Source: Solicoccozyma terricola (Eukaryota; Basidiomycota; Tremellomycetes; Filobasidiales; Piskurozymaceae). From it: 64,000 nt of DNA. The DNA lies in the NCBI GenBank assembly GCA_001600875.1, contig BCLD01000008.1:983046-1047045 (forward strand), given 5' to 3'. The notes below the pieces were generated by a model. That model was not told the DNA's origin and did not search any database. It saw only the letters and a program-made list of their open reading frames with translations. Below, piece after piece: positions 20,040 to 29,600 of the stretch (positions are counted from its first letter, which is position 1; each line of letters opens with the position of its first letter). A program made the translations under genes and the position numbers.

Positions 20040-20235
20040 GATCTGGTTGGGAGTGTATATTTTTATATTGTACGCGGTTTTTGTTACTTGAGGTATGCGC
20101 ATATTTACATCGGTCGACTGGTACTGGTTACAAAACACTCTTCGATATGGAAGATTTTCATGCGAGGCAGATCCGCCGAACGATCGCCGCCGATACAACT
20201 TGGGCCTTCATCATCCATCGTTTCCCGTCCAAACA

Positions 20236-21807
20236 TCACCGCGCGTTCAGTGCGATTGCTGCAGCACCCATTCCCGCTGCATCGTCCACCAATTCGATCC
20301 ACTGAAAGTGAACGCCCAACATCGCCAACTCCTCCGCCAGCACAAGACGGAACTGCTCCTGCTTGATGACACCCCCCGTTACGCTCAGGCCAGCATTCGT
20401 GGTAGGTTCGCATCCCTTGATCATGGCTTGATTGGCGACTGCTGCAATGTCCTTTGCGAGAGATCGAGCGCAGTGATGAACGACACGGACTGCAAGTTGG
20501 TCGGGAGGATGTGAGGTGAATGATGACATGACAGCGGGTGCGAGACCGGCTATTCGGAGTTTACGGAAGTTGCTTGCGGCGATGGCATCAAGGCCAGGTT
20601 CGAGGTCATGCTGTCCACGGAAAAGGTAGGTTAGATTGAGGGAGAAATACAGCGGAAGGCGGAAGCCGTCCTTCCCACTCACCACCCTGGACGGAGCATC
20701 CGCCGTACTCTCCACGTCGTAGTACTTGCGCACCTCGGCAGCAAGACCACCTTCCGTCTCCAGACCGAAATCAAAGTCATCTGCTGCCATCTTTACGGCG
20801 GTGATGCCAAGATGGTAGGCTGCGGGGGAATGTGATTGGAAGGTCTGTCAGATCCTATTCTTGCAACATGAGCGCCGCGATCCTACGCACCCGACCCATG
20901 ATCACCCAACAAATGACCTTGCCCACCACGTCGAACCAGCTGCTCCACCTTGCTGCCATGAACCTTTACCCCGACAACGACGGATCCGGTGCCGGCAACG
21001 ACAGCGATTCCCCATGAGCAACCGCGCTTGATGATCGGCGAGGAGAGTAGCAGACCATCGTTCATGACGGTAATGGGGACGTTGCTATGATTCAGGTTTA
21101 GATGCGGGTCAGCTCCGATGTCGGCTGCGCAGCACCTCGCCCCCACCGGCTCTCACAAGAATGACTCGAGCCGGCTTGTCATCCTTTTCTCGTCCATCGG
21201 ACTATCACAGCCTGCGATCTGCCGGGGTGAGCAACGCGAGGGAATCAGCAGTTGGATCTTCGATATGGTCGTCTCCCTACTTACCCCGATCCAGACACCA
21301 GCGAACCTTACTGGACACGTCGGATGGCCGTTCGCAGTGGTCTCCTGTATGATGTCATAGAGACTTGACATCGAATCCAGAGCTTCATAGGTCGCATTGA
21401 TCACTCTGAGAGATGAGACATGGTGGAGAGATAGGAGAGGTGGGGGGATGAGATAACGATCTGAGCGTCAACATGTAGGATCGACGACATCGTAGCAAGA
21501 GTCTATCTCACTCGGTAGCGGCCCTGTCCATGCCAACCTGCGATGGAGCAAGCCTGACCGTCAGTGTCAAAGCCCGATGTGAGATATGGGAGGCGCTGGA
21601 TCGGGAAACCCACCTCTGCCATATTGGCGCTCCGGCCCTTGCCACGAGCAACCACCTTGCCGCTAGAGTTGGCGATAGCGGCAGCCGTCTTGGTGCCTCC
21701 AGCCTGTGAAGACGTGATGATTTGACGTCAGTTAATAAAGGGTATGCGGTGGTGGGGGTTGGGTCGAGCATCACACGCACGTCGACGCAAAGAAAGTACC
21801 TGGACAT
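20236..21807 (-). CDS. N-acetylglucosamine kinase
   Basis: BadF/BadG-type sugar kinase of the ASKHA fold, converting GlcNAc to GlcNAc-6-phosphate. Exon 1 encodes MSRYFLCVD and is spliced to AGGTKTAAAIANSSGKVVAR, the phosphate-1 loop. Further motifs: FAGVWIG then AGCDSPMDEKRM, NVPITVMNDGLLLSS with the catalytic-type Asp, GIAVVAGTGSVVVGVKVHG (phosphate-2 loop) and RRGGQGHLLGDHGSG joined to AYHLGITAVKM. The C-terminal exons include GLSVTGGVIKQEQF. About eight exons are used. The length and all ASKHA motifs look intact, so a functional cytosolic enzyme is expected. An ATG 21 bases upstream would add seven residues. GlcNAc kinase serves chitin or amino-sugar catabolism. Confidence 0.88.
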
Positions 21808-23098: not shown

Positions 23099-26000
23099 AT
23101 GGTCTTTGGCTTCGGCTCTTCCTCCACGGCGGCGTCCACCCGCCAAACCAAATTGCATCTCGAACCAATGCAGATTCGTGAAATGCCCGATCCCACGACG
23201 CCAGCATTCGATGAATGGGTCGATAGCATGTTCAAGGATGGCCAGGAGCTAATTGAGAGCATGGGGTAGGTTCGGCGCTTCTGTGTGTATCACCCACCCC
23301 CATTGGCTGATATACCACCTACTACCTAACCCTCTCACAGCGAATGGCACAAGCACTCCACTCATCATCACGGCACCGTCCAATGTCTTACCCTTCCCAC
23401 ATCCTCATCAGGCCCACAAGCGGCTACTCGAGCTCGACTCGGCATCAAGGATTTCTGGTGTGGTCGAGAGTCATTCCATACGCCAAAAGAGCTTGCAGAA
23501 CTCCAAGCAAAAGTCGCACCGACTGCGGTAGGTGCAGCTCCATCTGGCAGCACGCATCCCGCAATGCCAAATAGGAGATCCTCGTTTGGACTAAGCACTC
23601 TGTTGAAGAAACGTGAAGAGGAGGAATCTCAACATGTGATGGTGCATGGTCACGACAATGGAAGCCAATCGGATGCTGCGAGGGCTTTAAAGATGATGTC
23701 CGAGTCTCCAGAATGTGTTTACGAGAGATTCAGGTGGGTGGTGTTTTGACGCGCAAACAACTAATGGGCCTGCCAGCTGATGGCGAACCCTACATCCCAG
23801 ACGCGGACTCTTGCAATATCACAGTCAGAACGAGAGGGATTACATAGAGAGTTGTCGCGAAGCTGAACAACTCGAGGTGTTTCGCAAGCATACGGCGGAG
23901 GGTGAGTAGGAGAGTCGGCGTTTTGTGACGTTTGGCACAATTGTTCATCCTACCATTGTCTTTTTGTTCGTAGTCTGGCGCTTGACATATGTCACTCCGT
24001 AAGTGTCTGCAGACGTCCCAGAGATCAGGACGTTGACTGATGGAACTCGACCCTCGCGTAGACCACCGACCAACCCGCGCACTTTCGTCATCCTTCTCCT
24101 TTCCCGCGAGATCACCCACTCCCCTATCGGCCAACGTCAATTCATGAACATCTCGATCCCTTTCCTCCATCCAGCTTGTCCACCAAAAGAGGGCGCGGAA
24201 AAGTCTCGCGTCAGAGGAAGATACGTGTCTGTTGAGAGAGTCACCGAGATGGACGGAGGGAAAAAAGTTCAATGGAGAATGTGTACGAGTAGTGATGCTG
24301 GTGGTAATATCCCGAGGTCGATGACAAACTATAGTCTACCTGGGAAAATCGCAGAGGTACGTTACGTTTGGTCGATGGTCGATGGAAGGGCAAATAAAGG
24401 TGCTAAATGCAACTCTCATCAGGACGTCCCGTCGTTCCTCGAGTGGATGGTCAAGCTCTTCCCGGAAGGCAGCGAGCTCGATAGTGGGAATGCCCAAGCC
24501 AACGGTCTTTTTGCCGCGTATCAACCACAAGCCAACGCTGCATCTACCACCATCTCAGCACCAGGTAAAGTTCTCGTTGCAGGTGGATACCTCGTCCTGG
24601 ACCCCGCGTATTCTGGTCTGGTCATTGCCACTTCATCCCGGTTCTACACCACTATCTCGACCACGAAGCCGAACCCCAATAAACAGAGTTCCATCATGGT
24701 TTCGAGTCCTCAATTCCAGGCTGCAACATGGGAGTACTCTTTCAATACGTCGTCCACCAAATCTTTCGTCACCCCAGTCTCGGGAGGGGCAAACAAGTTT
24801 GTGGAATTAGCACTGGACAAGACGCTGAAGCTGATCAACGCAATCAAGAGGTCTCGAGGTGATTCAGCAGTTGAGCTGGAAAGAAGTCTAGACATTGTCA
24901 TTGTCGGGGATAATGATTTTTATTCACAGCGTCAACAGGTAGGTTTTTCGTCCACCCTGTATTAACCTTTCTTTTGACGTCGTTTCAAATACTGCACTAC
25001 CCCCAAACGACAGCTCGATAAACTCTCCCTCCCTCCGACCCTCGCTTCTCTCTCCTCACTTGCTCCGTTCAATTCCACTCATTCCACCCTCGGGGATGTT
25101 CATAAGACTGGATTAGGGAGCTCAGCCGCGCTGATCACCTCTTTGGTAGCTGGATTATTGGTGCATTTCGGCGTTGTTGATGCCGCGCATCTTTCTTCGA
25201 ATACCTTGTCTACCACAAAGGAATCGACGAACGATTTGGCGCTCATACACAATACATCTCAATTCATACATTGTCTCGCTCAAGGCAAGGTTGGATCGGG
25301 ATTCGATGTGTCTTCTGCCGTGTATGGATCCCAAGTTTATCAGAGGTTTGGACCGGAGATCATTGAAAACGTGATGAGCGACAACGCCATTGAGGAGGAT
25401 GAGGCTGAATTGGTGAGTCGTCCTTTGCTCACGTCACCGCGAAAAGAGGGAGGAGCGGCTGATGTACCGATGCGTTTGGTGGACAGTTGTTAAACACTTT
25501 AAGGCCGTCCGACAGATGGACAAATAAAGTCTCTCCAATGGAGCTACCACATTTATTCAGATTGTTGTTGGCTGACGTTGATGCTGGGAGTGACACGCCA
25601 AGTCTTGTTGGGAAGGTGTTGAAGTGGAGGAAGGACAATGCGGAAGCTGGTTAGTTGTTAAAGCGTATTGCACACCTTTGACAGATACTGATCCAGCCAG
25701 TGAACATAGCCGACGACTTATATACATCGCTTGCACAGCAAAATGATCGTTTTGCAGTTCTTTTGCGTCGATTGTCAACCGCTGCTGAAAGTGACCGGCA
25801 GCGATACAATCGTACAATGGAAGTACTGTCTCGAGAAACAATCACGACTGTTGTCTCACCATTGGAAAAACAAGGCGTTGATGAAGATTTGATCGACGAC
25901 GTTCGGGAAGTCTCAAAAGTGATGGCAGTAAGTCTAGGTGGGCACTCGCAGGCCTTCACGGAGCTGATAAACATATCGATGATAGAACATCCGAGTACTC

Positions 26001-26392
26001 ATGAAACGCATGGGGACGGAGGCTGGTGTTCCTATCGAACCAGACGAGCAGAGTAGATTATTGGACAAGTGTGTTGATGTGGAGGGAGTGGTTGGTGGTG
26101 GTGTTCCTGGTGGTGAGAGGGCGGGCCATGCCGTTGTGACAATGATTGGAAGCTGATATCGCCAATCTATTCAGCTGGTGGTTATGATGCTCTTTTCCTC
26201 CTCATCATTGAGCCTCCATCATCCCCTAGCGCCGCTATCAGTAAAATTGAATCGATCTGGGGCCAATGGAAAGAACTGAGCGTTTGTCCGTTGAGTTGTT
26301 CAGCAGATAGAGGAGGTTTGAGGTTGGAAAATGTAGATGAGGTTCGCGGGTTCAAGCAGGCTGTAGAGAGAGGCAGAAGCCGTGCTGTCTGA
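23099..26392 (+). CDS. ERG8: START-like (DUF3074) region fused to phosphomevalonate kinase
   Basis: A single continuous gene of roughly 900 residues and about ten exons. The N-terminal part matches the fungal DUF3074 START-like lipid-binding group: MVFGFG start, RARLGIKDFWCGRESFHTP, RTFVILLLSREITHSP, RQFMNISIPFLHP, RVRGRYVSVERVTEMDGGKK, SDAGGNIPRSMTNYSLPGKI and DVPSFLEWMVKLFPEG. Without any stop it continues into a complete GHMP kinase: TTISAPGKVLVAGGYLVLDP (N-terminal motif), KTGLGSSAALITSLVAGL (ATP loop), QGKVGSGFDVSSAVYGSQVY, ADVDAGSDTPSLVGKV and GAGGYDALFLLIIEP near the end. Phosphomevalonate kinase makes diphosphomevalonate for sterol and isoprenoid synthesis. The only internal Met that could give a stand-alone kinase is at 24447, within the DUF3074 C-terminal exon. 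Two overlapping transcripts are therefore the main alternative to a true fusion. Confidence 0.85.
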
Positions 26393-26631: not shown

Positions 26632-29600
26632 CTATGAAAACTCCTCTGCCGGCTCAACAGCCTCGATGATCTCCGCAACCAGTGCGCAGCTTAGCCCTGG
26701 AATTAGTCGTTCCGCATCCTCAAAGGCCAGACGAAGTCTGACAAGGGCTTGCCGTGCCTCGTTGTTGGGTACGCGTAGAGAAAGCTGCAGCGGGAGAGGG
26801 ATCAGCGTGTCGTCTGCGTTTCAGGGGCACATGACTCACTGCATCCAAAGCCGGTATAATCACGCTGTCCAGCATCATGTCATCCATGCCTAGCTCCGGA
26901 ACAGATTCCGGCTCAAGCTCGTAGCCATCCTGAAGTGGCCGAGGGACTTTCTCCCAAGGGGAGAGCTCGGCCTCGTCGATGGTCGATCGCATAACACCCA
27001 CTTCCGCTAGTCGTTCCGGTTCGATTGTTCGGCCAGCCTCGACACGTACTCCAGGAGTAACATGAGACACCGGCGGGGGTGCATGTCGAATCGTGCCAAA
27101 GATTTCGTTGCCAGAGCTGCTGGCACGAAGTGCTGAAGCGCTTGGTTGACGAGATCTCAGACCACCTGGTGCCTGAGCTGGCGATCCTGCCTGGCCACTC
27201 TTCAGACTCTGCGTGGATGGCGGTCTTGGTAAGGGACCCTTGGATCCTCTTGGCTTCTGCTCCTGGTCCGCAAGGTTAGCCGAGAATAAGGGGGGGAGGT
27301 CGACGGATGGCGGCTGCTGCGTTGGCTGCGGTCGTGACGTCGATAGAGGGGTTGCATGCGGTGCCGTGGGAGGTTGTGGCAAGTGACCAATGTTCCGGAT
27401 CGTTCCGACTGTGTAGGAAGGGAGATATCAGCGACATGAGGCCAACGAGCGACAATGTGACGCACAGTCCCACAAGTCTTCTTCTGCTGGCCCGAATCTC
27501 GCCCTGTGGTTGATCAACAGTCACTGTGAGAGCAGTCACCTCCATCACGTTGAGTCCACTAACGTCTCGCGCAGAGCAGATCTGCCATCATCTTTCTTTT
27601 TCCCACCGTTTGCCAACCATCCCTCATGTCGCTCGATCAACTCTGTCAGGTACTGAGTCTTGCGTGCGCCTCGAATGAACCTATGTTTGAGTAGCTCTCG
27701 GGCAGTAGGTCGCTGTAAAGACATGAGTTAGAATCCACGGCTGGTTTGCCAACGTGTCCTCTCACATTCTTAGAGTCCCGCTGTAGACACAACGCCACAA
27801 ACTCCCTGAACGGTTTGGAGAAGGAGTCGTCGAGGTGAGGCGGAGGGTTGCGTGGGATCAAGAATAACACCTTCATCGGGTGAAGGTCCGCATAGGGAGG
27901 TTCACCTTTGGCCATCTCCATCAGTGTGATGCCTGTATGAAGGGTGGAGTTCAAAACCGCTGTATTCTTCGACCAGCGAGCAGTTCCCCCTCACCTAAAC
28001 TCCACATGTCGGCCTTGACGTCGTAGCCAGATTGTTTGATCACCTCGGGTGCCTGTCAGCGGTGCAGCGGTATCAGCTTGGATCACGCAAATACCAGAAA
28101 ACGGATACGTACCATCCAATAAGGTGTTCCAACAAATGTGTTCTGACAGGGGTAGGCGTACAATCAGCGTCATAGACGGGGCTTCCTCTCCTCGAGGCCG
28201 ACCTTCTTTGTCATCGTCGCCGTGAGTTGACCAGAGACACCGAAATCAGCTAATTTGACTGTACATACATTCTTTAATCAGCGCTTGGACATGGCGCGAA
28301 TCACGGCTCTCACTCACCATCACCGTTTGCCGTGAGCAAGATGTTGGCCGCTAACATGGAGAAGCATGTCAACTTGGCAAAGTGGAAGTCTGGAAACCCC
28401 GCTCATACCTTTAATATCACGATGCATCTTTCCCTCGCTGTGGAGGTACTCCAAGCCTCTCAGAAGCTCGCGGGCGAGGATGGCGATGTAGTCCTCTCTG
28501 AAGACCCCGGACTTGAGCTGCATATGGGAGGGATTGAGGTCGGTAATCGCAAGAAGATGCTGGCGAACACTTACCAGGTCGGCACAGCTGCCTCCAGAAC
28601 AATATTCCATAACGATCCAAAGGTGTGATCCTTTCAAGTAACACCCGTGGTACCTGGAACGATCATCATCAGCCGACCCGCACCTCGGTGACAGTGAGCA
28701 CACCCCGCCAACCTTGTAACATAGTCGCTCGTCAACTGAGATAAGATTTGTATCTCCAGTTGAATATCCTCGATCTCGTCTTCTGCGTTTTCCAGGTCGA
28801 TGATCTTGATTGCCACCGGTTTGGAGGTTCGGCGGTCATACCTGTTGGGTCACATTCAGTCGTAGAGGTGGGAATCACAATGACAACTGACTGACCCTTT
28901 CCAGACTTCTCCAAAGCTTCCTTTCCCTGTCAATTGGCGCGAGGGATGTGTAAATCGCCGGGACGCAAACCCAGCAGCCAACCTCCGAACACACCTATCT
29001 TGGCCTGCCTCACAAACACCTCCTCTGGATTCATCACGCTAGACCCACCGCTGGATACCGAGCTGGTTGTTAAGCGAGGAGCAGGCTGTTGCACTTGAAC
29101 TGGTGGCGGCGGAGCCGGTCGGGAAGGATTCATCTGTTGCGGAGGATTGATGATATGGTCATTGGCGATGGGGTAAAGTGATGTGTTGCAGAATTCAAAT
29201 GTAGGATGATGCGCAAGATGATGACGACCGTTGCGAGAGAGTGATTCCATCGATTTCAGATGAGTCAACCCATTTGTGCGGAATGTGAAAATTGTCGAGG
29301 GCGAGAGCGGAGGAGCGTTATCACCGGACGCGGCAGCCGGCGTCGAGATTCGTTTACAAGGCGGTGTTGGTGGACGATAGAGGCAAACGGGGGGAGGGAG
29401 AGATTGGGAATGCGCATGCATACGACGCGGTATCGCAATAGGAGTCGAGACGGCATGAAAGAAAGCGTCACCATCATCATACGACAAAACGTGTCGAGGT
29501 GTATACAGATGACGGTCGCGAGAATCAAAGTCGGATGGGTGGCGACGAGTTGAGGTTGAAGAGAACGAGTCGTCAAAGTAAAATTCCATATTGGCGTGTC

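Follow-up and report, generated by a model that had tools for sequence, protein, structure and literature searches.

START-type domains and phosphomevalonate kinase in known proteins

DUF3074 is a fungal START-type family that has barely been studied, and by this name it is scarce in the open-licence full-text literature. In Tremellomycetes the domain is found in stand-alone proteins such as P0121 of Cryptococcus sp. DSM 104548 and P0124 of Kwoniella shandongensis. A START domain also occurs in human ACOT11 (START structures 3fo5 and 6vvq), a protein titled acyl-CoA thioesterase, in which START and enzyme presumably lie in one chain with START at the C-terminal end. Finally, the TULIP review (PMC5507252) names LAM + DUF3074 proteins in some fungi, where DUF3074 is a lipid-transfer domain joined to another domain.

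In a window of 64,000 nucleotides from the basidiomycete yeast Solicoccozyma terricola, a START-type (DUF3074) gene and ERG8, the gene for phosphomevalonate kinase, which is an essential enzyme of sterol synthesis, are predicted to form one coding region. This is most probably a real and recent gene fusion making a single two-domain protein of about 876 aa (probability about 0.85). The partner of DUF3074 would thus be a metabolic enzyme, while it is a lipid-transfer domain in the LAM + DUF3074 proteins (PMC5507252). The enzyme of ACOT11 differs from the kinase found here and close kinship is not claimed. As compared with the stand-alone proteins, the DUF3074 half is similar (57% identity with P0121 across 91% of the 364-aa query) and has the same C-terminal helix and tail to FPEG. 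However, where DVPSF could be located (35 of 36 rows), those proteins stop 12-57 residues from its first residue (about 26 in Tremellales), whereas the frame in the window continues into the kinase. In the same way, Erg8 of other fungi, for example P0001 of Naganishia vaughanmartiniae (51% identity), is full length with three motifs like the kinase of the window, but the latter is devoid of its own start Met and has a START-type domain in front.

Predicted structure of the composite gene

The predicted features, all on the plus strand, are as follows.

23099..26392, + strand: predicted fused coding region, 11 exons, 876 aa plus stop; ten GT-AG introns, unbroken translation
23099..23265, + strand: exon 1, with the start ATG in the context TTCACCATGG
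23341..23733, + strand: exon 2, START-like/DUF3074 part
23801..23901, + strand: exon 3, DUF3074
23974..23998, + strand: exon 4 (25 nt), DUF3074, VWRLTYVTP; sequence in agreement with relatives
24062..24356, + strand: exon 5, DUF3074, contains SDAGGNIPRS
24357..24422, + strand: intron 5 (66 nt, GT-AG), in frame and stop-free, within DUF3074
24423..24938, + strand: exon 6, DVPSFLEWMVKLFPEGSELDSG, with the DUF3074 C-terminal helix DVPSFLEWMVKLFPEG, the linker and the kinase start TTISAPGKVLVAGGYLVLD, up to YSQRQQ
24447..24449, + strand: Met 336, the in-frame Met closest upstream of APGK; a conserved DUF3074 residue with T at -3
24501..24545, + strand: new linker (approximate, about 15 codons), from the usual DUF3074 end to T369, placed from the ends of relatives
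25014..25412, + strand: exon 7, kinase, contains KTGLGSSAA
25487..25649, + strand: exon 8, kinase
25701..25927, + strand: exon 9, kinase
25986..26112, + strand: exon 10, kinase
26175..26392, + strand: exon 11, kinase end and stop; GVPGAGGYDA is divided between exons 10 and 11

The ATG at 23099 has an A at -3. By eye, the N-terminus of the protein is similar to that of Kwoniella P0124 (MLFGSS).

The original prediction had described one stop-free frame running from DUF3074 into the kinase within a single exon, and both domains were indeed found in this frame at the expected place. SDAGGNIPRS, on the other hand, belongs to exon 5 and not to the kinase exon, as intron 5 (24357-24422) intervenes. 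Relatives show no insert matching this intron and read directly into DVPSF; being in frame and stop-free, it makes the raw frame appear continuous. It was also considered as an intron between the two domains, and rejected because of its position inside DUF3074. Exon 6 does contain both DVPSFLEW (aa 328-335) and APGK (aa 373), at a spacing of 37 residues instead of about 30.

The junction between the two domains

The junction reads LFPEGSELDSGNAQ...STTISAPGK, and neither a stop nor a frameshift was seen there in the complete set of reading frames or in the gene model. The usual DUF3074 tail and T369, the residue at which sequence shared with other kinases begins, are separated by a linker of only about 15 residues. 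Hence almost nothing is missing on either side except the DUF3074 stop and the kinase start Met. The open frame alone is weak evidence, as we estimate that some 15 codons would be free of stops by chance roughly half the time. Three features go beyond chance: the stop of DUF3074 and the start Met of the kinase have both been lost, the two domains are well conserved, and the same junction recurs in an environmental sequence, P0161, described below.

A whole-protein search of 5.8 billion proteins, in which 7995 candidates sharing most words were scored, gave 237 matches, and none of the 120 listed covers more than 60% of the query. Among these 120 kinases, 118 have a Met within 16 aa before PGK, at variance with the 37 aa of the window protein. 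In the two exceptions, P0034 and P0056, Erg8 is preceded by a riboflavin kinase domain.

Conservation of the two halves

On the kinase half, Pfam gave only a weak GHMP C-terminal match below its cut-off, and the half was therefore scored with NCBIfam. The Erg8 model TIGR01219 matched over positions 1-452 of 456 (E 4.8e-111) with 371.9 bits, against a curated cut-off of 376.95; the score of the Naganishia relative P0001, 359.5, likewise falls below this value. Three motifs, which we take to be GHMP motifs 1-3, are present: APGKVLVAGGYLVLD at aa 373, KTGLGSSAA at aa 530 and GVPGAGGYDA at aa 801. Strongly conserved columns (at least 95% one residue among 113 relatives, 7 of the 120 rows being omitted as merged or multi-domain) are retained in 95 of 96 cases. 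A comparison of this half with solved structures by sequence gave no match at E <= 0.01.

The first half matches DUF3074 (PF11274) in Pfam at aa 180-336 with E 3.8e-37 and 128.4 bits, well above the gathering cut-off of 27.5. Here 61 of 62 columns with at least 90% one residue are retained (36 relatives; P0148, P0149, P0153 and P0154 were omitted from the 40 rows, their gene models being judged broken by eye). The assignment of DUF3074 as START-like is supported by the predicted structure of a relative, in which a helix-grip fold with a long C-terminal helix, the mark of START, was found. At the level of sequence, PF01852 (START) matches 12 of 32 DUF3074 relatives at E <= 1 (best E 8.7e-06), with no match at this threshold in the window protein; a PF01852 search gave none in its own genome, nor in the control genomes, and is therefore uninformative. 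When compared with PDB sequences, the DUF3074 profile found a phosphatidylcholine transfer protein (E 0.0066) and a putative polyprenyl synthetase (E 0.82).

By eye, the Naganishia DUF3074 proteins P0150-P0153 are without the long mid-protein low-complexity stretch of the Tremellales and window proteins. Their end differs as well, with DVPSFV followed by xYxNxx... as opposed to LxWMVxRFPEG.

Distribution and apparent age of the probable fusion

P0161 is a 200-aa ORF on a 1650-base contig of a JGI metagenome that contains the DUF3074 end, the linker and the kinase without a stop. It begins in intron 5, and its DUF3074 content corresponds to the last exon's worth only. Seven of 196 positions differ from the window: 0 of 16 in the intron 5 part, 0 of 41 in the DUF3074 end and linker, 6 of 131 in the kinase part of exon 6 and 1 of 8 beyond the donor. 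The difference between 0/41 and 6/131 is not significant (Fisher p 0.34), hence no selection on the linker is deduced from it. With these seven differences, P0161 would derive from another individual or a close species, which makes an assembly slip unlikely.

Searches with the DUF3074 half and with the junction ORF gave 41 and 312 matches, respectively. P0161 alone was matched by both halves at E <= 1e-10 among the 280 proteins listed, and it was the only one with a DVPSF-type motif among the 120 listed junction-ORF matches. The closest other kinase among the matches listed, P0162 (78% over 135 residues; 3563-base contig), begins MSTTISAPGK, and by eye the 45 residues upstream of its Met bear no resemblance to DUF3074. 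In a kinase tree where metagenome rows except P0166 fill 26-28% of the columns (26% for P0161 and P0162), the window protein groups with P0161 (100/96), then with P0162 (97/95); all three belong to a clade that also includes Filobasidium and Naganishia (84/92). The fusion looks younger than the split from P0162 and, as far as these sequences indicate, recent and lineage-specific.

In the DUF3074 tree, the window protein stands beside Tremellales and not with Naganishia (81/92). The kinase half thus goes with Filobasidiales and the DUF3074 half weakly with Tremellales, a discrepancy for which the divergence of DUF3074 in Naganishia probably accounts. As the support for neither placement is strong and the Naganishia DUF3074 proteins are short and divergent, no gene transfer is proposed.

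DUF3074 and Erg8 proteins lie on contigs of different size in 13 of the 13 species for which both were listed, a comparison of draft assemblies at the level of clusters that may include other strains, made by contig and not by gene map. These species are Cryptococcus sp. DSM 104548, DSM 104549 and C. depauperatus, Tremella mesenterica, Kwoniella mangroviensis, bestiolae, pini, dendrophila, shivajii and sp. DSM 27419, and Naganishia albida, adeliensis and cerealis. The two genes are thus seemingly not neighbours there. As a contrary case, the original prediction had envisaged separate genes in close relatives together with a frameshift here: the genes do appear separate, and no frameshift was seen. 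In the genome of S. terricola itself (23.9 Mb, 33 contigs), DUF3074 and Erg8 profile searches each match this locus only (counts being lower bounds), so that no source of either function was found besides the fused gene.

The two genes are seemingly separate in related yeasts and are joined in this yeast and in one near-identical environmental relative. Within reach of the searches, DUF3074 with phosphomevalonate kinase is a new domain architecture, although both families and gene fusion are already known; the pair was met in P0161 only among the protein matches listed and was not met in the literature searched.

Proposed function and alternative explanations

In the proposed scheme, a START-type gene and ERG8 would have been joined end to head, only the former's stop and the latter's start Met being lost. 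The product would be a chain of about 876 aa in which both domains are intact and the START C-terminal helix is followed by a short linker. As this is the only Erg8 found, the kinase half in all likelihood continues to act as Erg8 and to make diphosphomevalonate. Lipid binding most likely persists in the START half, which would also set the location of the protein and bring the attached kinase, in a one-to-one ratio, to the same place. Fusion would then impose equal amounts and a common location on both halves. From sequence alone, we infer that the fused protein would be the main product, that both halves would be active and that coupling them may bring a benefit. A natural covalent tie to an enzyme of the mevalonate pathway is a guilt-by-association clue that the lipid or cell location of DUF3074 may concern sterol or isoprenoid synthesis.

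Another explanation, compatible with the fusion itself and to which we give an even chance, is that the join is neutral: the lipid domain would be a passenger, the kinase would be unchanged, and lipid binding and catalysis would be uncoupled. The lineage-specific and apparently recent character of the fusion is in keeping with this, as is its short and plain linker. The metagenome proteins P0034 (796 aa) and P0056 (715 aa) point in the same direction, as they combine Flavokinase (PF01687, riboflavin kinase) and Erg8 in one open frame. Like the window protein they have Erg8 in frame with another domain and no Met close to APGK, the nearest being 146 residues away in P0034 and 57 in P0056, but their N-terminal partner is Flavokinase instead of START/DUF3074. 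These predicted proteins represent an independent Erg8 fusion in another lineage with an unrelated partner, so that the N-terminus of Erg8 seems to tolerate additions, which favours mere tolerance. Nevertheless, nearly all conserved residues are kept in both domains, which indicates constraint on each of them and is silent on their coupling.

START could also be a lipid-responsive controller of the kinase. A sterol, an isoprenoid or another lipid bound under the C-terminal helix, to which the kinase is directly attached, would shift the place or activity of the kinase and make the mevalonate pathway responsive to lipid at the phosphomevalonate kinase step. We regard this form of coupling as unlikely, if conceivable. 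The original prediction had suggested that the lipid-binding-like domain could tether sterol synthesis to a membrane or sense a lipid; the sequence would agree with such a use as well as with mere tolerance, and does not point to a particular lipid.

Two nested products have also been put forward, namely a DUF3074 transcript and a kinase made from a shorter transcript or by internal initiation. An in-frame Met at 24447 (Met 336) would give a 541-aa kinase, and a further Met is present at 24375 in intron 5, hence in unspliced RNA. However, Met 336 corresponds to the M of the FLxWM motif that DUF3074 proteins conserve, so its retention is not owed to a role as kinase start. Its -3 position is T, and before APGK is reached there is an ATG at 24490 in another frame. 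Nor does it resemble the starts of the other kinases listed, which are much closer to the motif apart from those of the two riboflavin kinase fusions. A second transcript starting at 24447, as suggested in the original prediction, is weakened by these features, and we consider nested products quite improbable. One fused protein is well supported in comparison, by the frame, the intact domains, the lost kinase start and the P0161 junction.

A hidden intron at the junction that would yield two proteins was examined as well. Between 24431 and 24575, a GT can be paired with an AG at 35-90 nt in 26 ways; the frame survives in 12 of these and is lost in 14. GTGGGA at 24484, by eye the most donor-like GT, preserves the frame with all 4 of its AGs in this range, while all 3 pairings of GTATCA at 24518 disrupt it. 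This candidate was rejected, as a frame-breaking splice would remove the kinase from that transcript and not release it.

An assembly or contig artefact uniting two separate genes, suggested by their apparent location on different contigs in relatives, is highly improbable given the same junction in P0161, which comes from another source, and a join that is in frame and precise at both ends.

Other possible composite Erg8 proteins and flanking genes

Ferrochelatase and Erg8 were observed in one annotated protein in Psilocybe cyanescens (P0037) and Gymnopilus dilepis (P0041), with a Met directly before APGK. These may be neighbouring genes merged by annotation and not fusions.

Around the composite gene, an upstream neighbour on the minus strand (20160-21700) is by eye similar to N-acetylglucosamine kinase/BadF-type ATPases. 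Downstream, a convergent gene occupies 26720-27990 on the minus strand, and its piece at 27646-27990 resembles by eye the end of a Ste20-type protein kinase domain.
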